Virus record (IMG/VR): IMGVR_UViG_3300033153_004579
Location: 1-39,344 of that record
Direction: 5' to 3' (one strand)
Length of the DNA: 39,344 bases
From: a virus
Both the position numbers and the translations under genes were made by a program. A model generated the notes under the pieces. It did not search any database. It was not told the DNA's origin and saw nothing but the letters and a program-made list of their open reading frames with translations. This document shows positions 8,207 through 39,344 of the stretch, in pieces (within the stretch, counting starts at the first letter, position 1; every line of letters begins with the position of its first letter).

Positions 8207-8846
8207 CTTTATACGTCTTCCCCTTCTGCGTAAGATATTTTACAAACCGTTTTTTAGGTGGCTTGGCTATCGTCTGTAGACGGCTTCCATAGATTTCCTT
8301 CAGCCTCGAAATAGACTGAGTGCCATGGCAGTCGTAGAGGGTTCTTGGAGCGACTAACTTATCATCGATGAATATTAAAGGATGACCGTCCTTAACAGTA
8401 AAGCCGTCAAAGTCCCAGTTAGCAGCTCTATATACAGCTCCACTGTGTCCTGCAAACGGGTCGGCATACGTGACAATAATGTCATACTGACCCAACTTCT
8501 TCAGCTCTGCAACACAGGCTTTCATCAATGACGACATAGCCCAAACGTGATTGGGGCAGCCTACCATTCTTGCCAGCTCGATAGGCACTATCCCTTTGGT
8601 CTTGAATCGGGACTCTAGTAGCCGAGAACGGCAGTTGGTAAACACGCAACATCCCTCTTCATGCCCCCATGCGTGCACAATACCTCTTACAGAACCAAGA
8701 TAGTGCCACCGCTCAAGTAGCCTATTGGCTTCCCTAGCCGACAGCTTTCTTACCCGAAGCGTCTTTTGGAGCGGCAAGGTCGGATTCGAACCGCCACCTG
8801 TCGTCTGGTCTGACGACCGTTCTTGCCTTAAACTATTGCCGCACAT
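8196..8846 (-). CDS. Mom-like DNA-modification protein (GNAT fold)
   Basis: 216 residues if the ATG at 8846 is used; it overlaps the upstream stop as TAATG behind GGGAGAAGGG. Residues from about 80 on match the Mu Mom type: PIELARMV, SSLMKACVAEL, then VTYADPFAGHSGAVYRAANW and a following YDG-like strand. Mom converts adenine in DNA to N6-(methylcarbamoyl)adenine and protects phage DNA from restriction; a related acetyltransferase-like role is the alternative. The first 25 codons coincide with a tRNA-like sequence (8767-8842), so the true N-terminus may lie further in, although no good ATG/GTG exists there. Its place between recombination genes and the polymerase fits a genome-protection job. 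Confidence 0.7.
   Translation of the reverse strand: MCGNSLRQERSSDQTTGGGSNPTLPLQKTLRVRKLSAREANRLLERWHYLGSVRGIVHAWGHEEGCCVFTNCRSRLLESRFKTKGIVPIELARMVGCPNHVWAMSSLMKACVAELKKLGQYDIIVTYADPFAGHSGAVYRAANWDFDGFTVKDGHPLIFIDDKLVAPRTLYDCHGTQSISRLKEIYGSRLQTIAKPPKKRFVKYLTQKGKTYKGDS
8767..8842 (-). tRNA. tRNA-like sequence with encoded CCA, degenerate, identity not assignable
   Basis: Read on the - strand: acceptor stem GCGGCAA/TTGCCGC (7 perfect pairs), then T and CCA; D-stem GTTT/GAAC with loop AAGGCAA (contains GG); anticodon stem GTCGT/ACGAC; variable loop AGGT; T-arm GGCGG, loop TTCGAAT, 3' side CCGACC. Defects are an 8-nt anticodon loop (CAGACCAG) without U33 and one bulged A in the T-stem. It could be a decayed phage tRNA, a tRNA mimic, or the remains of an attachment-type recombination. 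It lies within the first codons of the Mom-like gene. Confidence 0.55.
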
Positions 8847-11630: not shown

Positions 11631-12629
11631 TTACTTTGTGGTGAACAAGTATCCACCACGACCAACCTTTGTGATTATGTCTTCCTCAACCAGTTCCTTG
11701 AGTGCTTTGGCGATACTGGCGTGCTTGCCAATGCCAGCTTCTTCAAGAACCTTCGGGCTGACCTCTACGCCCGCACTATCTCTCAGGAACTCCAAAACAC
11801 CTCCTTTCACAGTATCTTGAGAATCAACGGGCACAAACTCAAAGTCTTGGAGTTCTGCCTCTATCGGCTCAGGGGGCAGTTCAGCATGACGGAGGTCTTT
11901 CGGGGTCAGCCGAATCCGCAGTGGTTCTCCATTCTTGGAGACCCGCCGCATTTCAACGAAGCTGTCAACCCACGCTTGAAGGGCATTTGACCCACGCCCG
12001 CCTTTGCTGAGGTCTTTCCCCGCATGATGAATCAAAACCACCGAGCAGGAAAACCACTCAATCAGGTCGTCAAGAAAGCTGGTTACTGCCCTCATGTCTT
12101 TGGCTTCGTTTTCATCGCCGTCCATCATTGTGTAAAGTGGGTCAAGTATAACCACCGACGGCAGGACTGCCTCCATCGCTCTAGTGAGAATGCCCTGCCC
12201 CGCTTTGGTGTCCAACTTCATAGAAAAAGTAGTGCCAACATACACCCCACTGTAGGTTTTGCCAGTTGCCCGAAACCTAGACTGAAGCACTTCCGCCCCA
12301 AGTTCAGATTGCACGTAGAGCACCCTGCCTGCGTTGGTAGGTATGCCCAAAAAGGACTCGCCCTCCCCGATTGCTCTTGCCAACTGCATACAAAGGTAGC
12401 TCTTGCCCACCTTGGGTTGCCCGTAGATTTCAAGTCTGCCCTGCTTGGGCAGCCAGTCCTTCAAGTAATATGGAACTTTGGGCAGTGGCAGATGAACGAA
12501 GGCACCTGCCTCGTAGCAAAAGCCACCAATGGGTCGGAGGATTTTTGGCAGAACCTCTGGGTCAATGTCGTCGTAGGCGATGAACTCCTCCTCGCCCCGC
12601 TCGTTGACCACGTAGATGCCATCACGCAT
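11631..12629 (-). CDS. RepA/AAA_25-type replicative ATPase (probable helicase)
   Basis: 332 residues, ATG at 12629 overlapping the upstream stop as TGATG. RecA-fold core: Walker A GQPKVGKS (70-77), Walker B SVVILDP (158-164), then VVLIHHAGKD and a GGRGSNALQAW loop typical of the RSF1010 RepA-like AAA_25 family. The last 60 residues look like a winged helix (SPKVLEEAGIGKHASIAKALKEL). I see no DnaB-type helicase or primase elsewhere in the window, so this is the likely replication motor or helicase loader. Confidence 0.8.
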   Translation of the reverse strand: MRDGIYVVNERGEEEFIAYDDIDPEVLPKILRPIGGFCYEAGAFVHLPLPKVPYYLKDWLPKQGRLEIYGQPKVGKSYLCMQLARAIGEGESFLGIPTNAGRVLYVQSELGAEVLQSRFRATGKTYSGVYVGTTFSMKLDTKAGQGILTRAMEAVLPSVVILDPLYTMMDGDENEAKDMRAVTSFLDDLIEWFSCSVVLIHHAGKDLSKGGRGSNALQAWVDSFVEMRRVSKNGEPLRIRLTPKDLRHAELPPEPIEAELQDFEFVPVDSQDTVKGGVLEFLRDSAGVEVSPKVLEEAGIGKHASIAKALKELVEEDIITKVGRGGYLFTTK

Positions 12630-14818: not shown

Positions 14819-14836
14819 GGTTGCCTCCCTCCTTTT

Positions 14837-14903
14837 GCCCTACGGGGCTAGTCCCGACTTTAACGGCTTAGTTACCCTGCACTTTTTACAGACCCCGCAG
14901 GGC
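14837..14903 (-). ncRNA. Structured leader: 11-bp helix in front of gene 14651-14818
   Basis: On the - strand GCCCTGCGGGG (14903-14893) pairs with CCCCGTAGGGC (14847-14837) in 11 consecutive pairs including one G-U. The 3' strand ends about 10 bases before the AGGAGG of the next gene. Its 5' strand is part of a 15-mer also present in the large structured region (15551-15565). A cis-regulatory leader is the simplest reading; a separate small RNA is possible. Confidence 0.5.
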
Positions 14904-14923
14904 TTGTCTGCGTTTAACCTCTC

Positions 14924-15106
14924 CTATACGCTAGGTGTGGGGTATTTTCGTTCTAACTCCTCATTTGCTTTATCAACGAAGAAAACGCTCCCGCCTCTAG
15001 GCAGTCTGAATGTCCACTTGCCCCAGATGTCCCAGATTGGTCTAACATTCTCCTGAAAATTCATCTTTATGGATTTGACTACTTCTTCTGCTATTGGTAA
15101 TTCCAT
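14924..15106 (-). CDS. Hypothetical protein
   Basis: 60 residues from ATG at 15106, seven bases after GAAGGAGC; the longer frame is a weaker choice. Contains a central W-rich strand set (VRPIWDIWGKWTFRLPRGG). Not recognised. Confidence 0.6.
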   Translation of the reverse strand: MELPIAEEVVKSIKMNFQENVRPIWDIWGKWTFRLPRGGSVFFVDKANEELERKYPTPSV

Positions 15107-15147: not shown

Positions 15148-15363
15148 TTAATATGGGCATAAGGGCACCAATATCGGCTTCTCGACACCCATTGCCCTGC
15201 ACTCAACTGGAAAGCAGTCTTTACAAAACTGCCTAGTGTTGCCGTTTCTATCCTCGGAGATTACGGTTGTAGTCTGCCCGCAATTACACTTCGAGCATTC
15301 AAACAATACAAAGCCACGCTTCAAGGTGTTCCAGTTTTGTTGTGCTTCTTCATGCTTGTTCAT
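15148..15363 (-). CDS. Zinc-ribbon mini-protein
   Basis: 71 residues from ATG at 15363. ECSKCNCGQ and FCKDCFP give a CxxC...CxxC zinc ribbon flanked by short strands (TTTVISEDRNGNTRQF). It is the first gene after the 537-nt structured region. Confidence 0.65.
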   Translation of the reverse strand: MNKHEEAQQNWNTLKRGFVLFECSKCNCGQTTTVISEDRNGNTRQFCKDCFPVECRAMGVEKPILVPLCPY

Positions 15364-15900
15364 CATTAGCCTCATCAGCCTAGTTTCCTCTGGGACTGGG
15401 GCTACTCTCTAGCCCAATTACCGATAGTGCGCACTAACTAACTGCCTCAAGCTATTTTCACCCCAGTCCCTTGAGACCTGCGAGGCTGGTGATGCTTCGG
15501 GTATCTCACCACTCAAGACTATTACCCGTTGCCCTAGTCGGTAGCCTTTCACCCCGCAGGGCTTGCCTGAGCCTACACCCGCCTAAACGCTTGATAGCAC
15601 TCCCCATTCTACTATCTAATCCTACCTCGGCTCAGGCTTGCCCGCCAGCTAGTAGCACGTCGTCTGCCTAAGCTCTTCATTACAGCAGACTAGTCAACTA
15701 CAGTTGTCCCCGAAGCTGACACGCTCCACTCCCTCTCGAGTAATGGTAGCTGGCAAGTGTTTCCCGCCAGCCGAGCTTCCCTACGGAAGTCCTTTCAAGC
15801 CCAAAGGCTGTAGCTGGCAGGCTTGCTGGCTGTCATTTCTCGCCTTGACATTTAACCTGCTCTGGCGGTCTAGTTTTAGCAGACACCAGCAAGCGGGGCA
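15364..15900 (-). ncRNA. Candidate large structured RNA (537 nt, no gene)
   Basis: No convincing frame on either strand. Perfect complementary segments are dense: 15886-15894 with 15821-15829 (9 bp), 15629-15637 with 15565-15573 (9 bp), 15461-15470 with 15392-15401 (10 bp), GGGCTA/TAGCCC at 15399-15415, a 12-bp palindrome at 15425-15436, and 6-bp hairpins GCTGGC/GCCAGC, GTCTGC/GCAGAC, CTTGAG/CTCAAG, TGGTGA/TCACCA and GACTA/TAGTC. Phages are known to encode ornate RNAs of this size (GOLLD, ROOL), but I cannot match it to either. The strand is inferred from the neighbouring leftward genes and the promoter at 16114-16144; the opposite strand would fold as well. Confidence 0.6.
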
Positions 15901-16074
15901 TTATTCTGTTTCAATAATTTCCTCAACAGCAACTACTAGAGCATCTTCAGCTTCTGGGGCAGGAGAATCAATCCGATAGTAGCACCGAGGACACTCGGTG
16001 GTAGCATAGTCGCAAAGAATGTTGGCAAACCGCTCGTGGAGAGCATCTTTTTGCGCCTTGGTTAGTTTGAACAT
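15901..16074 (-). CDS. Short cysteine-containing protein
   Basis: 57 residues, ATG at 16074 after GGAAGGAAGATGCC. Starts MFKLTKAQKDALHERF, then CDYATTECPRCYYRID (possible zinc site), and an acidic tail ending EEIIETE. First gene behind the promoter at 16114-16144 and directly before the structured region. Confidence 0.65.
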   Translation of the reverse strand: MFKLTKAQKDALHERFANILCDYATTECPRCYYRIDSPAPEAEDALVVAVEEIIETE

Positions 16075-16113
16075 GGCATCTTCCTTCCAATTGATTTTTG
16101 GGCATCTGGTTCC

Positions 16114-16144
16114 ATTGTACCACTGCCCAGTCGTAGGCTGTCAA
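16114..16144 (-). promoter_or_regulatory. Sigma70-like promoter ahead of gene 16074 and the structured region
   Basis: TTGACA (16144-16139), 19-bp spacer ending TGG, TACAAT (16119-16114) on the - strand. Same geometry as the promoter at 11484-11514 and the rightward one at 20691. It overlaps the stop codon of the gene before it. Confidence 0.7.
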
Positions 16145-16332
16145 GTCCTGACGATAACTCCCGACTTGGTTTGGTATTCCTTGGTGTTTTTGGGCAGCTC
16201 TATATCTTCCCTTTTCCGTGGACTGCATGCTCGGCAGTACAGCTTAGCGTTGCGCCCGTTGCCTATAACGTCGAACAGACTTGCGGACTGCCCACACTTA
16301 CAGCATACCAGCTTGCTTGTTTTCCTTTTCAT
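16141..16332 (-). CDS. Zinc-ribbon mini-protein
   Basis: 63 residues from ATG at 16332, five bases after AAGGG. The frame stays open to 16482 through a large inverted repeat, but those upstream codons look non-coding. CCKCGQSASLF and YCRACSPRKRE form a CxxC...CxxC ribbon; the flanks are basic, as in nucleic-acid-binding ribbons. Confidence 0.65.
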   Translation of the reverse strand: MKRKTSKLVCCKCGQSASLFDVIGNGRNAKLYCRACSPRKREDIELPKNTKEYQTKSGVIVRT

Positions 16333-16351
16333 GTTGCCCTTCATTGTTGGC

Positions 16352-16460
16352 GGGTCGGGCTTCTGTCTGTTGTTTTGTCTGGGGTTGTCTGTTTGTATGC
16401 TACCCCACCCCTTATTATATAAGGGGGGGTGATAGACATACAAACAAACAGAAGCGACCC
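16352..16460. repeat. Long nested inverted repeat between two early genes
   Basis: Outer arms GGGTCGGGCTTCTGT (16352-16366) and ACAGAAGCGACCC (16448-16460) pair with a two-base bulge; middle arms TGTTTGTATG (16390-16399) and CATACAAACA (16437-16446) pair exactly; inner arms CCCCTTAT (16408-16415) and ATAAGGGG (16419-16426) pair exactly. No U-run follows. It could be a cruciform, a protein-binding operator or an RNA hairpin. The window 16333-16508 holds no other supported gene. Confidence 0.7.
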
Positions 16461-16508
16461 GTGCCTGAGCAGATTTTGCCATTGTCTACTGCCCTCAGGC
16501 GTGATTGT

Positions 16509-19680: not shown

Positions 19681-19725
19681 CCTCCCTTCTATAATAATCG
19701 CTTGCCCTCCCTTCTATAATAATCG
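19681..19725. repeat. Direct repeat, 20-bp units 25 bp apart
   Basis: CCTCCCTTCTATAATAATCG occurs at 19681-19700 and again exactly at 19706-19725. The second copy covers the stop codon and last codons of the gene at 19714; the first is intergenic. Probably a recent tandem duplication, which also duplicates a GGAGG site. Confidence 0.85.
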
Positions 19726-20220
19726 TAGCTGGCATAAGTGGTCAGCGTAGTTGTCGGATTTTCTTCGAATCTCACACCATAGTTCAGCTTGACGTTGGGC
19801 AGGAGTCAGTCCTTTACTGGCAGCATCTTCACGTATGGCGGATTCGATTAAGTCATATTGATGCTTTGTTGGTACCTTTTTGGGTATTCGGAAGTACCGA
19901 AGTATCCATATATCAACGGGAACATAGTCGTCATGCCCGATTAAAGCATGGTACAAGGCTTGGCATTTTCTGCCATTTGGCTCTCCGTTGGCAATGACGT
20001 TTAGCAAGCTTTTGTAGTGTGCATTAATGAATGAGCTGCGCTTTACGGTACCCGTGGCTTTGATTTGGTTGTATGCTTTGATGGCAAGGCGAGTGTTGAG
20101 GCGTACGGAATTGTTCGGGGAGGTGGCAGCAGCTATGGCACAAAACAACCGCCAGTCATCGCCAAAGGTACGTTTAATGGCTTGCCTAGACTCGATGTAC
20201 CAATTTTTTGGCTGTCTCAT
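19714..20220 (-). CDS. Possible HhH-GPD DNA-glycosylase-like protein (DUF7178-like)
   Basis: 168 residues from ATG at 20220 with GGAGG six bases before it. The upstream ATG at 20250 overlaps the promoter's -10 box and cannot be in the transcript. Fold hints: ATSPNNSVRLNTRLAIKAYNQ, a central helical region, then VPVDIWILRYF, which resembles the catalytic-Asp strand-helix (VD-x-x-x-x-R) of helix-hairpin-helix glycosylases. I recall a phage family (DUF7178) of this kind; assignment is tentative. First gene of the leftward block, so an early function such as DNA repair or anti-defence is plausible. Confidence 0.55.
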   Translation of the reverse strand: MRQPKNWYIESRQAIKRTFGDDWRLFCAIAAATSPNNSVRLNTRLAIKAYNQIKATGTVKRSSFINAHYKSLLNVIANGEPNGRKCQALYHALIGHDDYVPVDIWILRYFRIPKKVPTKHQYDLIESAIREDAASKGLTPAQRQAELWCEIRRKSDNYADHLCQLRLL

Positions 20221-20248
20221 GTCAGCCTCCAATAGTTGTACTGTGTTC

Positions 20249-20276
20249 ATTATAGCATAATTTTTGCGTTTGTCAA
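20249..20276 (-). promoter_or_regulatory. Main leftward early promoter
   Basis: TTGACA (20276-20271), 16-bp spacer, TATAAT (20254-20249) on the - strand: both boxes match the sigma70 consensus exactly. Transcription should start near 20242, which fixes the first gene's start at 20220. Confidence 0.9.
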
Positions 20277-28973: not shown

Positions 28974-30274
28974 TGCCTGACGGTGCAACAACTAAAGATT
29001 TTTGGAAATGGGTTGAAGATACCTACGGATATGGTACTGCTATTAGGCTGAAGCAGGAAATGGGGTCGTCATACCTGATGACTCCGTTCTTCTCAGGCGT
29101 TGACCGAAACCACCCGATTTACCGCTTCTGGTATGAGAACGTTCTACGTAGAGGTGGGCAGCCAACGGCTGGCTTTACGATGCCGCCTTCATATGGGATG
29201 CCAATTACTACGTACGAAGAATACTTGTCTACCTTGCGAGATTGGTTGGTTCGTCTGGTAATGGACGCAGGGGTTTCGTCGGACACCGCCGAGGCGATTC
29301 GAGACAACGTTAAAAACTGGATTACCCGTGGTGTACCAGTAAACCAACTGCCGTTCTATGAGGTCTTTACATCACCAGATGAACAGACACGGGACTACGA
29401 ACTGTACAAGGTAAAGACTCGGCAGAAAGACTGGACTAACTACGTCAACAAACTTACCAAAGATTGGCAGAGATATAGGGCAGAATACAAGCAGTACGCC
29501 GAGGAAACCTTGCCCGCATGGGTAAAAGAGCAAGCAGATATAGCCAAGCGTCGTGAGCTTGTAGACTGGCAGACTCTAGAACTTGGTCGTTGGGCAGACC
29601 AGCAACGACAGAAAGAATACGCCAGAGAGAAGGCAGAGCGTGGCTTCCTTAGTGCCTTGGAAGACCAAGAGAGACTTCGAGCAGCCGAGGCAAGGGAACA
29701 AGCAGAGCTTGAAGCCGCCAGACAAGCTAGGCGGGAACCAATGCCCGAACCAGAGGAAGCATATTCCTCGTTCGTTGAGGCTATTGTGTCTCCTGCCCAA
29801 CGTCAGTATTTCCAGAGAAGGCTGTCTGACATCTATGGCAAGTTTGAGCGTGAGAACGAGGGGCTGCGCCAACAGTGGTGGAATACGCTTCAAACGTTTA
29901 CGATGGGTACTGCCCAACCCACGCCGTATGCCCCAATGAGTTCCGACATTGCTGCTGCTGAACGATACGTCGGTCGTGGCGAAGATGCCCTTCAAAGCTA
30001 CCTGAACACAGCGTATCGATACCGCCAGAATCCAGCATCGGAGGAATTCAGAGGGCTGCCTAGGGAAGCACGTGAGGCGTTAGGTTCAACAGCGGCAGGC
30101 ATCGGGTCTTGGGAGGCTAGTGTTGCAGATTGGAGTAGGCAAGCCAAACGTCGTGACCCTTGGGAGGAATATCTGGAAAAATATCCAGCCAGAGAGGAAT
30201 GGTTGTCACTTCCTCCGTGGCAGCGTGGCTTCTATACTTCTAGATTTGCGCCCAAAGCTAGGTGGAGAACATAA
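28973..30274 (+). CDS. Coiled-coil structural protein, possibly internal or ejection protein
   Basis: 433 residues, ATG at 28973 (TAATG overlap with portal). An N-terminal W/Y-rich domain is followed by a long charged coiled coil (about residues 150-310) full of A, E, R, K and Q, then a proline/tyrosine-rich end. Its place between portal and the polyvalent protein suggests a head-internal or ejected protein, or a scaffold-like head component. No catalytic motif visible. Confidence 0.65.
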   Translation: MPDGATTKDFWKWVEDTYGYGTAIRLKQEMGSSYLMTPFFSGVDRNHPIYRFWYENVLRRGGQPTAGFTMPPSYGMPITTYEEYLSTLRDWLVRLVMDAGVSSDTAEAIRDNVKNWITRGVPVNQLPFYEVFTSPDEQTRDYELYKVKTRQKDWTNYVNKLTKDWQRYRAEYKQYAEETLPAWVKEQADIAKRRELVDWQTLELGRWADQQRQKEYAREKAERGFLSALEDQERLRAAEAREQAELEAARQARREPMPEPEEAYSSFVEAIVSPAQRQYFQRRLSDIYGKFERENEGLRQQWWNTLQTFTMGTAQPTPYAPMSSDIAAAERYVGRGEDALQSYLNTAYRYRQNPASEEFRGLPREAREALGSTAAGIGSWEASVADWSRQAKRRDPWEEYLEKYPAREEWLSLPPWQRGFYTSRFAPKARWRT

Positions 30275-33200
30275 TGCCCGACAACAAGGATTCGTTTATA
30301 AATGAAATAATGCCTGTTCCTGAGAAGATTAGGCTGGAAAAGAAAATCCTTGAAGCAAGAAAGCGTCTCGGACAAGCCCCTTGGTGGGACGAGGCGTGGG
30401 ACGACCCAGAGCTAATCAGACTTGCGACGACGGAGTTGTACCCCGGTGAGCCTACAAAGAAGCCATCTTGGTGGCAAAAAGCCCTTAGAGGCTTTGGAGA
30501 AGCTGCCGAGGAAATTTCAACTCCAATGGGCATGGCACTAACTATGCCTTGGTGGGCAGGAAAGTGGGAACCGCCGCCAGCCCCTCCGGGCTATGATTTT
30601 GGTGTTTCTGCTAAGGTCACGCCAGAGAAGCCTATGGTGCCCAGAGAGTTTCTACAGGAACTCTACAAAGAGTACGAGCAAGAACTTGGTAAATCCATGC
30701 GTCGTGCGTACGAAAAGGCTGAGTACCCCGGAGTTGATATAACTCCGCCGTTTAGATTCCCGTGGACTCCCGAAGAAGTAAGGGAGAAGCCTTGGCGTTT
30801 GGATGTAAGGGGACTTGCTGAGGAAACTACCTATCTGCCGCTGTATCTTGTAGGTGTTGGGGCAGGAAAAGAGGTTGGGGGCAACTTGGTCAGACAGGGG
30901 CTTAGCAAAGTTCGGTCAGCCTTTAGCAAGTCTAGGGCTGGCAAGTTGATGACCGATGCCGAGTCTAGGGCATTACTAGCATTTCAGGAAGCCACCAACT
31001 ATGGCAAGAGCAAACTGAACGAGGAAACATTCTTAAAAGCCCTGTACGGGTCTCCGAAGGTAACTGCCCTACCTACGAGACCGTATCCGACCTATGGGCA
31101 GGCGGCAAAGGCTGTTGCGGCTGCATCAAAAAACCTTTGGGTTAAAGCAGCTACCGAACCAGACAACTCTGACAGAACGCTACTGGTTCAGTTTTCTTCG
31201 AAACTTCTCGGAAAGGGGGAAGAACCAGCAGCTAGAAAATACTTTGACAAACTTTACAGGTCACGGGCAGGATATGCCAGAGCGGACGATTTTTGGGAAA
31301 TACCAACTTGGATAGGTTCCGCAGCTAAAAACTTTCCAAAGTCAGACGTTTACATCGTAAGAAATGTTGACGAGGCGGCAAAATTCCTCAACAACGCTGG
31401 ATACAAAAATGTAATGTTCAGCGCAATGGACGTAAACGTTGACTTCATCAAGCAACTAGCCAAAAAATATAAAGGCAAGATAATCGTCGGCGGATATGTG
31501 AAGAAGGAAGCCTTCAAAGACATGCCCAACGTTCGATTTTATTCCAGCATCCAGAATGCTGCCAAAGCACTTGGAGAGAAGCCCAAGCAGGGGGTTTCTT
31601 TCCATCACTTCAGGGGTTCAACCACAATCCCCCGACTTTGTATGTCGAAGGGGTGTGCACATGACTGTGTAATGTGTGATGTTACCCGTGGAGTTACAAC
31701 CATTTCCAAGAGAACCATAGACCAGCAGGTAGAGGCGATAAAAGAACTTAAACCTCGTCTAGTCTATCTAGATGACAAAACGTTTGGGCAGGCACCAAAC
31801 TATAAATACCTGCCCGAGGTGTACGCTAGACTAAAGGCAGACAATCCAGAGTTTGATGGGTTTATTGTCCAGACTACTGCCCCCCAATTTTTGAAGATTG
31901 ACCCAAAGTTTCTGAAGCAGTCTGGCATTCGATACGTTGAGCTTGGTGTGGAAAGCTACAACGATGATATTTTAAAGCGGCTTCGGAAGCCGTCAACAAC
32001 AAAAACCATTGACCAAGCATTAGATAAAGCTAGGAAGAACAACATCCCAGTAGTTCCAAATGTCATTATTGGACTGCCTTGGGAGACTAAAGAAAGCTAC
32101 CAGCGGACTTTGAACTTCTTGAGGGCAAACTCAGACATCATATCTCACACCAATGTCTATAATCTTGCCCTTTACGAAGATACTGATATAGCAAAGCTAC
32201 TTGGCAGGAAAATTGCCGAAGATGTAAATGAAAACGTAATCAGGAAGTCCTTTCATAAGAATCCGAAACTTCACCAGTGGTTTGCCGACGAGGTGTATAA
32301 GCTTTCTGGAAAGATGTTAGACCTACCAGTTGGTGTTGGGTTAGAGGGGCGTGGGTCGCCAACGGTTCAAAAGGCTGTCAATCTTATCCGTCAAGCTAAG
32401 CCAACAAAAGAGATGCAACATATGCTGCTGGAACAGCGTAGAGCAACCCACCAGAAGAAGGTGGCTAAATACCGTGCTTTGATTTCCAAGGCGACCACTA
32501 CTGAACAGCGAATTAGAGCTAAAGCTGCCCTTGCTGGTGAGGAACCTGCCTACGACCTAATCCCATTAAGTAAGCTAGGCTTCACAAAAGAAGAAGTTGA
32601 CGAATTGACACGAGCCATCAGCGACTCAACAAAACTTCTAGAATACCAAAAGGTAAACGCAATCGATGCTTTGGTGGGCAAAGAGGGGAAAGGTGGCTTG
32701 ATTTATGCTGGAAAGATACCTACTTGGTACGAACTGGGGCTTCTGGAACGTGTCTTTGGGCTTGAATTCACCAAGCCATTTGCTGAGATGCGTCCATGGA
32801 GTGCCAGAGCAATCAGCACGACAATAGATATACTTAATGCACCACGAACATTACTCGCATCAATGGACTTATCGGCGACACTTCGTCAAGGTGCCGTGCT
32901 TGCCCCTAGCCATCCAAAGGAATTCGTAGACGCTTTTAAGATGCAACTCAAGGCTTTAACCAGTGAAAAGAATGCAATAAAACTTAACGAAATGCACTTG
33001 GGCAGGACAGGGGAAGCTGGCATAGATGCTGAAGCCTTGAAAAGAATTGAGTATGGTTTGTTTATTCACGACCTGTCGCCGGGGGTATTTTCCACGTTGG
33101 CTGAGCGTGAGGAAGCATTTATGTCCAAATGGCTTTCCAAACTTCTTCCAATAAGAGCGTCAGAACGTAGTTACGCCACAATGCTTAATACACTACGAGT

Positions 33201-34422
33201 AAATGTTTACGATGCTATCGTAGATGGTTGGAGGCAGTCGGGAAAACACTTCACGGAGAACGACCTTCGAGAGTTGACTCGATTTATTAACTACGCTACG
33301 GGCAGGGGTGCACTATCCACAGGTGAGTACGCTGCCCAACGGACACCTACTTCTGGGGTTCTAAAGGCTGGCTTGAACGTACTGTTCTTCTCGCCTAGGT
33401 TTCAGACATCGAGGATTTTGCTTCCTTGGTGCTTGGCAAGCAGTTCTGAAGCAGTAAGGAAAATTGCCGCCAGAGACCTTGCGGCGTATGCTTCAACTAC
33501 AGCGATGATTATGTATCTAGCCTATCTTGGTGGGGCAGAGGTGGAACCGAATCCACTGTCCACAGACTTTGGAAAGATTAAGGTAGGCAAAACACGATAC
33601 GATATGCTGGCTGGCTTCGGCTCATACATAAGGGCACTCTGGCAGACTTCTCCAGCTTTAGTACACCCCGGTGAGGGGTTGAAGAAGCGTCAGACTGGTC
33701 GAACTTACGAAATAAATGCGTTGTGGAATCTTGTTCAAGCTGGAAGGATGAAGTTAAGCCCAATTCCAGCTATATTGGCTGACCAACTTAGTGGGGCTAG
33801 TGTAATTGGTGAGGAAATTACCTACGAAAAAGAAGACGTTATTGACCAGCTTGTAAACGGGCTTATGTCCATGTACCCGCAGACAATTATTGAAGCACAA
33901 GAGGAATATGGCTTGACTGGTGCTTTAATAAGAACTCTCCCAGAAGCATTTGGAATCAACACTACTACCTATGACTCTACATTGATGGTCGCCAACGATG
34001 TGCGGTCAATAATCTCCAAGTTAGAATCAGACCAAGAGAAATTCAGGAAATACATTGAGGAAAAGGAGTACGGCAAGGCTCAGGAGTTTGCCCGCAAGAA
34101 CCCGAAGCTAAGCATGGGTTATGACCCTAGGTATGGGAACTACTATTCGGAACCCCTGCGACGACTCAGGGCAGCAGACAGGGAGATAACCAGTCTTGAG
34201 AAGATGATTGACGCTGTTGACGCTGATAAAACTAAGCTGCCCGAACAGAAGGAACAAATCATCGCAGACCTTCAGCGGAGAATAATAAACATAGCTCAAA
34301 CCGCTATACTTAGTTACGATGGGGCACCTGAAGATATACTGATGCAAGGTGGGCAAGAACAGCCCCAACAGCGGTTTGACGTAAATAAATTCGACGAATA
34401 CCTACCATCATTCAAGAAATAA
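30274..34422 (+). CDS. Polyvalent protein: Rossmann-like plus radical SAM domain, LPD38-like C-terminus
   Basis: 1382 residues from ATG at 30274 (TAATG overlap). Residues 1-350: P/W-rich head-like region. About 357-440: Rossmann-like segment (DVYIVRNVDEAAKFL, KIIVGGYVKKEAF) as precedes radical SAM domains in B12-type enzymes, without a DxHxxG cobalamin motif. About 445-640: radical SAM core with Cys461, 465 and 468 (CAHDCVMC), LDDKTFG, YVELGVES and IGLPWETKES. From about 818: a region matching my memory of LPD38, a domain of phage and plasmid polyvalent proteins (LLASMDLSATLRQGAV, RSYATMLNTLRVNVYD), with one hydrophobic helix near 1075-1090. These proteins are proposed to enter the cell with the DNA. 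The enzyme's substrate is unknown. Confidence 0.85.
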   Translation: MPDNKDSFINEIMPVPEKIRLEKKILEARKRLGQAPWWDEAWDDPELIRLATTELYPGEPTKKPSWWQKALRGFGEAAEEISTPMGMALTMPWWAGKWEPPPAPPGYDFGVSAKVTPEKPMVPREFLQELYKEYEQELGKSMRRAYEKAEYPGVDITPPFRFPWTPEEVREKPWRLDVRGLAEETTYLPLYLVGVGAGKEVGGNLVRQGLSKVRSAFSKSRAGKLMTDAESRALLAFQEATNYGKSKLNEETFLKALYGSPKVTALPTRPYPTYGQAAKAVAAASKNLWVKAATEPDNSDRTLLVQFSSKLLGKGEEPAARKYFDKLYRSRAGYARADDFWEIPTWIGSAAKNFPKSDVYIVRNVDEAAKFLNNAGYKNVMFSAMDVNVDFIKQLAKKYKGKIIVGGYVKKEAFKDMPNVRFYSSIQNAAKALGEKPKQGVSFHHFRGSTTIPRLCMSKGCAHDCVMCDVTRGVTTISKRTIDQQVEAIKELKPRLVYLDDKTFGQAPNYKYLPEVYARLKADNPEFDGFIVQTTAPQFLKIDPKFLKQSGIRYVELGVESYNDDILKRLRKPSTTKTIDQALDKARKNNIPVVPNVIIGLPWETKESYQRTLNFLRANSDIISHTNVYNLALYEDTDIAKLLGRKIAEDVNENVIRKSFHKNPKLHQWFADEVYKLSGKMLDLPVGVGLEGRGSPTVQKAVNLIRQAKPTKEMQHMLLEQRRATHQKKVAKYRALISKATTTEQRIRAKAALAGEEPAYDLIPLSKLGFTKEEVDELTRAISDSTKLLEYQKVNAIDALVGKEGKGGLIYAGKIPTWYELGLLERVFGLEFTKPFAEMRPWSARAISTTIDILNAPRTLLASMDLSATLRQGAVLAPSHPKEFVDAFKMQLKALTSEKNAIKLNEMHLGRTGEAGIDAEALKRIEYGLFIHDLSPGVFSTLAEREEAFMSKWLSKLLPIRASERSYATMLNTLRVNVYDAIVDGWRQSGKHFTENDLRELTRFINYATGRGALSTGEYAAQRTPTSGVLKAGLNVLFFSPRFQTSRILLPWCLASSSEAVRKIAARDLAAYASTTAMIMYLAYLGGAEVEPNPLSTDFGKIKVGKTRYDMLAGFGSYIRALWQTSPALVHPGEGLKKRQTGRTYEINALWNLVQAGRMKLSPIPAILADQLSGASVIGEEITYEKEDVIDQLVNGLMSMYPQTIIEAQEEYGLTGALIRTLPEAFGINTTTYDSTLMVANDVRSIISKLESDQEKFRKYIEEKEYGKAQEFARKNPKLSMGYDPRYGNYYSEPLRRLRAADREITSLEKMIDAVDADKTKLPEQKEQIIADLQRRIINIAQTAILSYDGAPEDILMQGGQEQPQQRFDVNKFDEYLPSFKK

Positions 34423-38637: not shown

Positions 38638-39344
38638 TGACCAAGGTAATTGCTAGAAACGAAGTGGAACTGGACGGCACAAGATACCCGCTTGTGGGCA
38701 GGGTTGAATCTGGGCTGGCTTCGAACTTCCCCCAGAAAATCGTCATTGGAGACTACACCAAGGCGAGCAACCCGCTTGTGGATAGTTGGGTCATTGATGA
38801 CCAGCGGGGTGGCATCGGTGTGGAGGAAATGGACGAAACCAAGCACGCTAACCGATGCTGGTTCTCGACCTGCGACCTCAGTTTTGATGGGCATATTATC
38901 CTGCCAAGGCTGGCTACATCGGTTTCGATGCCAGTAACGGGCATGACCCTTGCCAACGCTGGACTGAACGACTGGTCTGGCGGAACTCCAGACAATTGGA
39001 ATGTCAGCGGGCATCTCTACACCATTTCTCAGGAGACCTCCACCAAGAAGGAAGGAACCAGTGCTGTAAAGTTCGTTATTGACAGCTCTGTTGAAGAAAA
39101 TGACTACGGCTACATATACCAAAACGCTTCGGGCAACATTGCCGAATATAAAGGTAAATATGTTGCTGTAGGCGTATGGGTCAAATCTTCAACAAGTCTT
39201 GTTCAGCTATGGGTAGATGATGGAGTAGGTAATACATCTACGGCTCACTCAGGCGGCGGAGATTGGGAATACTTGGTGGTCGTCCGACAGATAGATTCTA
39301 GTGCCACAAGGCTGAGAGTTTGCGTCGGTGTTCCAAGCACGGAA
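38637..39344 (+). CDS. Probable beta-propeller tail protein, N-terminal 236 residues (continues at position 1)
   Basis: ATG at 38637 overlaps the preceding stop as TAATG. The window edge cuts the gene; the frame continues through the 114-bp overlap to 1671, giving 754 residues. The first 75 residues (VELDGTRYPLVGRVESGLASNFPQKIV) look like a tail-hub entry domain; about 100-190 is a carbohydrate-binding-like beta module (GLNDWSGGTPDNWNVSG, YIYQNASGNIAEYKGKYVAVGVWV), also seen in fibres. It is probably the tail nozzle or hub with an inserted lectin-like domain. Confidence 0.7.
   Translation, partial: MTKVIARNEVELDGTRYPLVGRVESGLASNFPQKIVIGDYTKASNPLVDSWVIDDQRGGIGVEEMDETKHANRCWFSTCDLSFDGHIILPRLATSVSMPVTGMTLANAGLNDWSGGTPDNWNVSGHLYTISQETSTKKEGTSAVKFVIDSSVEENDYGYIYQNASGNIAEYKGKYVAVGVWVKSSTSLVQLWVDDGVGNTSTAHSGGGDWEYLVVVRQIDSSATRLRVCVGVPSTE
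39231..39344. repeat. Right copy of the 114-bp terminal direct repeat
   Basis: Identical to bases 1-114. Removing one copy gives a closed molecule of 39,230 bp in which the tail gene starting at 38637 is uninterrupted. Confidence 0.95.

Follow-up and report, generated by a model that had tools for sequence, protein, structure and literature searches.

Does a stretch of more than 500 nucleotides without a gene, lying in the early region of a phage genome, encode a large structured RNA, and if so, is that RNA related to those already known? Few families of large structured RNA have been described from phages; their functions are unsettled, and some of them form RNA cages. The original prediction had pointed to a gene-free segment of 537 nt (15364-15900) with dense perfect stems and had compared it with the GOLLD and ROOL RNAs. 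The window analysed here is the whole of virus record IMGVR_UViG_3300033153_004579, 39,344 bases in length. Its ends carry an exact repeat of 114 nt (1-114 is identical to 39231-39344), so the record represents a phage genome that is closed into a circle and probably complete, and a relative (L003) that is about 95% identical spans the joint of the circle. The host is likely a member of the Chloroflexota, since terminase relatives with 44% identity are found in Chloroflexota/Dehalococcoidia MAGs.

The genome is divided into two oppositely oriented parts. The plus strand carries the terminase and the structural genes from about 21000 on, and between about 20250 and 2186 most genes lie on the minus strand, including an AAA ATPase, an RNase H and a DNA polymerase A whose N-terminal part, as we read the sequence, appears uracil-DNA-glycosylase-like. 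The gene-free segment sits among small genes of the minus strand, and all of its neighbours are on the same strand. The upstream gene (15901-16077, minus) encodes 58 amino acids with an acidic C-terminus and belongs to no family. The downstream gene (15148-15375, minus) encodes a Cys-rich protein of 75 amino acids (CSKCNCG...CKDC) with a weak, below cut-off match to DUF7685, and its possible starts are at 15375, 15366 or 15363. Although a codon-based gene caller scores this ORF too low, its cysteines resemble those of a zinc ribbon, which suggests a real gene. A promoter-like site of suboptimal spacing (TTGACA-N19-TACAAT, 16114-16144, minus) is located upstream of both the 58-aa gene and the segment. 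Elsewhere on the minus strand a 24-nt repeat reading CTTGACA...TATAATA occurs in three copies (18759-18736, 18400-18377 and 17330-17307), and these look like repeated early promoters of the sigma-70 type.

The gene-free segment is real, and its exact limits are 15376-15900, i.e. 525 nt rather than 537, because the downstream ORF can start at 15375 and not only at 15363/15364 as had been assumed; the other limit is set by the end of the 58-aa gene at 15901. All six frames of the segment contain 7-16 stops each, the codon score is negative in every one of them, and a Pfam search with the stop-free pieces gave no match. On these grounds we reject a frameshifted protein gene, which the original prediction had named as one of the findings that would speak against it. 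The segment thus lacks coding potential, as structured non-coding RNAs generally do.

The three perfect stems of 9-10 bp that had been described are all present exactly: GGGACTGGGG/CCCCAGTCCC (15392-15401/15461-15470), GCCTGAGCC/GGCTCAGGC (15565-15573/15629-15637) and GCTTGCTGG/CCAGCAAGC (15821-15829/15886-15894), as is the 12-nt palindrome TAGTGCGCACTA (15425-15436). We counted perfect stems that are 9 bp or longer and have a spacing of up to 100 nt. Neither the 200 dinucleotide shuffles (mean 0.22, maximum 2) nor the 73 consecutive genome windows of 537 nt (maximum 2) include a case with three or more. The folding energy has to be read with more caution. The minus strand of the segment reaches a minimum free energy of -209.0 kcal/mol, compared to -192.5 kcal/mol for the lowest of 74 sampled genome windows of equal size, but this is in part due to its higher G+C content (55%, versus 49% in the genome). 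The z-score of the whole segment is about -2.9 on the minus strand (1 of 100 shuffles was as low) and -3.9 on the plus strand, and values below -2.9 occur in 5 of the 74 sampled windows, for which the z-scores were derived from only 10 shuffles each. Stability and stem richness are thus above expectation, even though the whole-segment z-score is not unique in the genome and is only moderately unusual. Given the G+C excess and these five windows, folding energy carries little weight by itself, and the stem count and the domain structure are the better evidence.

The predicted fold of the minus strand consists of four or five separate domains. Domain 1 (15821-15894) is a hairpin formed by GCTTGCTGG/CCAGCAAGC (9 bp, p 0.92) that is extended by TGTC/GACA and has a z-score of -2.4. 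Domain 2 (15644-15818) is multibranched and closed by GCCAGCTA/TAGCTGGC (8 bp, p 0.94), with the inner stems CTTCC/GGAAG, GGCTGGCGGG/CTTGCCAGCT, GTCAGCT/AGTTGAC and GTCTGCT/GGCAGAC; it holds five or six hairpins, one of which, CTC-GAGA-GGG, has a GAGA (GNRA) loop. Its z-score is -3.6 (0 of 200 shuffles), and -2.3 for its plus strand. Domain 3 (15565-15637) is built on the 9-bp stem GCCTGAGCC/GGCTCAGGC with a loop of 55 nt (z -3.4, computed on 15563-15640) and is followed by a less certain hairpin region (15562-15498). Domain 5 (15361-15494) contains the helix GGGACTGGGGT/GCCCCAGTCCC (11 bp, p 1.00) and has the most extreme of these values (z -4.1, 0 of 200 shuffles); its outer closing helix (15494-15478/15378-15361) covers the start codons of the 75-aa gene. 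All these domain z-scores are inflated because the domain limits were taken from the fold itself. Two alternative states had also been proposed for this part of the segment. The pairing of GGGCTA (15399) with TAGCCC (15410) does overlap the first of the three stems and is sterically possible, but forcing this hairpin costs 7.8 kcal/mol relative to the main fold, so that a switch between two states is plausible during transcription at best.

A repeated sequence motif, which was not part of the original prediction, offers the best hint of function. The 41-nt motif AGCGTTTAGGCGGGTGTAGGCTCAGGCAAGCCCTGCGGGGT (15551-15591, minus) recurs at 14892-14932, and the two copies (15591-15551 and 14932-14892) are identical at 32 of 41 positions, with an exact core of 15 nt. 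No shuffle out of 2000 attains their local alignment score of 23 (maximum 18), and no other 118-nt piece of this genome scores as high. A 55-aa gene starts 75 nt downstream of the second copy, which is situated in about 105 nt of non-coding sequence. This copy forms part of a second, small segment that appears structured (14819-14935, minus, z -1.9 to -2.4), directly upstream of the strong ribosome-binding site AAAAGGAGGGAGG of this TTG-start gene. Since the pairing around the motif differs between the two copies, what the copies have in common seems to be the sequence itself, as a target of recognition, and not a conserved helix.

It is instructive to compare the segment to known RNA families. 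The Infernal scan against Rfam that had been suggested was run on the window at the gathering cut-off and on 15200-16500 up to an E-value of 10, and relatives were scanned as well; no family was found for the segment. At the relaxed threshold the segment and its surroundings gave only chance-level matches to families of eukaryotic microRNAs and lncRNAs, and the sole family that touches the segment is PVT1_6 (15329-15437, plus, 14.6 bits as compared to a cut-off of 45). A resemblance to RNase P RNA noted by eye (GGGGTGAAAGG...GGTAATAGTC) was dropped, as the order of the elements is wrong and the model does not match. ROOL (RF03087), an RNA that forms homo-oligomeric cages, is similar to the segment in size class, multidomain predicted fold, phage location and separation from protein genes. 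However, the segment has no match to the ROOL covariance model at E up to 10, and whereas ROOL is often encoded near tRNA islands in phages (PMC12286853), there is no such island alongside the segment, only one tRNA-like gene 6.5 kb away. This is the degenerate tRNA noticed earlier: it lies at 8767-8842 (minus), has an irregular anticodon loop and scores 30.7 bits at a cut-off of 29. The ORF of a Mom-like DNA modification gene shares its first codons with it, and the true start of this gene probably lies downstream of the tRNA-like gene. GOLLD (RF01998) is likewise a large phage RNA with an elaborate fold, but the segment shows no Rfam match to it and no recognisable conserved 3' region, and it is shorter than most GOLLD RNAs, many of which exceed 800 nt (PMC12286853). 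The proposed kinship to GOLLD or ROOL is thus unsupported, and what likeness remains would lie in how large the segment is, where it sits and how densely it folds (PMC12286853). Group I and group II introns and CP group II ribozymes are also several hundred nt long and multidomain, but no Rfam intron family matches at E up to 10 and the segment lies between genes, not within one.

The search for relatives of the segment was extended to several collections. A blastn search against 50,697 phage records and 72,556 plasmids found nothing similar. The exact 15-nt core has 71 matches in 2.9 million viral contigs, about the number estimated for chance, and none has related flanks. Single-sequence covariance models of domains 2 and 5 do recover the window, which is their only match among the terminase relatives, and they found nothing in 400 Chloroflexota genomes. 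As baits, the neighbouring proteins (the helicase at 11631-12629, the DUF7178 protein at 19714-20250 and the 75-aa protein) yielded no relatives; the DNA polymerase and the terminase did, and no contig of a close relative reaches the region of the segment. The absence of relatives is therefore weak evidence, because the relatives at hand are fragments. The large gaps in the terminase relatives turned out to be mostly divergent promoter regions or, where they could be read through, missed genes, and none is like the segment by sequence. In one marine terminase relative (L226), the first 6 kb contain about 60 perfect hairpins with 6 bp or more; over 20 kb there are 97, as compared to 28.5 in shuffles. 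Many of them are within an intact GP88 ORF (PF17338, E 5e-32), i.e. this region is palindrome-packed coding sequence.

Taken as a candidate, the segment is probably a new structured RNA outside the families of Rfam 15, known from one sequence. Of the original prediction, the large structured RNA itself stands as the best reading, because the segment is non-coding, its stem density is exceptional, its folding energy is low and its subdomains reach z-scores of -3.4 to -4.1; the part that found no support is the kinship to GOLLD and ROOL. We give a probability of about 0.45 to the reading that it is a multidomain RNA of about 500-540 nt, encoded on the minus strand in the early/replication operon and acting in trans as a scaffold or sponge via its motif. 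This reading is further suggested by the base composition, which on the minus strand follows the order G>A>C>U (G 33%, A 25%, C 22%, U 20%; the surrounding early region has G 26% and A 30% on this strand) at a G+C content above that of the genome, by the shared orientation of the neighbours together with the promoter-like site upstream, and by the recurrence of the motif in a second non-coding segment. The lack of a homologue in anything searched counts against it. The strand of the RNA is inferred from context, since the plus strand, too, folds better than its shuffles. What the sequence directly shows is the absence of coding potential, the excess of stems and the repeat of the motif. We envisage that the RNA would be transcribed along with the 58-aa message from the promoter near 16144, might then be processed, and would persist thanks to its fold; binding of a phage or host protein may follow, with the shared 41-nt motif as the likely contact site.

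Three other explanations have to be weighed against this one. The segment may be a cis-acting leader, i.e. a long 5' UTR of the 75-aa gene in which the last domain controls translation, with 14819-14935 as a second such leader (of the 55-aa gene) and both recognised via the shared motif. We regard this as rather unlikely, though the closing helix of domain 5 takes in all three possible starts, with a mean unpaired probability of 0.36 for the codon at 15375 and 0.10 for that at 15363, and the second motif copy stands 75 nt before a gene with a strong ribosome-binding site. However, the AGAGGAA preceding 15375 is as accessible (0.61) as the corresponding sites of other genes, 525 nt is well beyond the length that a leader requires, domains 1-3 are away from the start, and the pairing around the motif is not kept between the copies. 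A trans-acting RNA is slightly preferred to a long leader.

The loss of flanking pairing around an exact 15-nt core would also fit an element that works as duplex DNA, such as a replication origin, a recombination site or a protein-binding region, in which the inverted repeats and the motif are sites on the double strand; the palindrome and the inverted repeats are present on both strands, and both strands fold better than shuffles. RNA-primed replication regions of such size are known in mycobacterial prophages, where Alma and LadyBird have a non-coding transcribed region of about 400-600 bp (PMC7157519). The segment resembles these as a non-coding phage region of similar size, but no parABS genes, and more generally no partition or initiator gene, are recognised beside it, and there is no DNA-sequence kinship in the phage collection. 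Moreover, the cumulative GC skew has its minimum at about 18-20 kb, near the divergent region and not at the segment, which has no iterons and no A+T-rich unwinding stretch and is G+C-richer than the genome; a DNA-level role thus seems improbable to us. We judge it equally improbable that the segment is a decayed gene or neutral spacer in which the stems are a chance cluster. That no homologue was found and that the whole-segment z-score does not stand out from those of other genome windows would agree with a spacer, but neither shuffles nor any other window match the stem count, the motif is shared with the second segment, the six frames bear no trace of a protein family, and compact phage genomes seldom keep 525 nt of spacer.

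If the preferred reading of a trans-acting RNA is true, the segment adds a further, unrelated large RNA from a lineage without a cultured phage, which would point to a repeated origin of such RNAs, and it provides a fresh case, resting on one sequence, for asking what phages use large RNAs for. We also speculate, with considerable doubt, that it represents a large ornate phage RNA of a new class, with no sequence relationship to GOLLD, ROOL and OLE, in a lineage probably infecting Chloroflexota, and that a protein- or ligand-binding motif of this RNA is reused in a second, shorter leader.

Two further features of this genome deserve mention. A long, nearly perfect intergenic inverted repeat lies at 16351-16480; on both strands, its folding z-score of about -6 is the most extreme between 12 and 20.6 kb, and it is possibly a terminator, a processing site or a small mobile element. 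A protein of 1386 amino acids (30262-34422, plus) contains a Radical_SAM domain (residues 461-620, E 9.5e-19), an unusual placement for such an enzyme, as it is encoded amid the structural genes.
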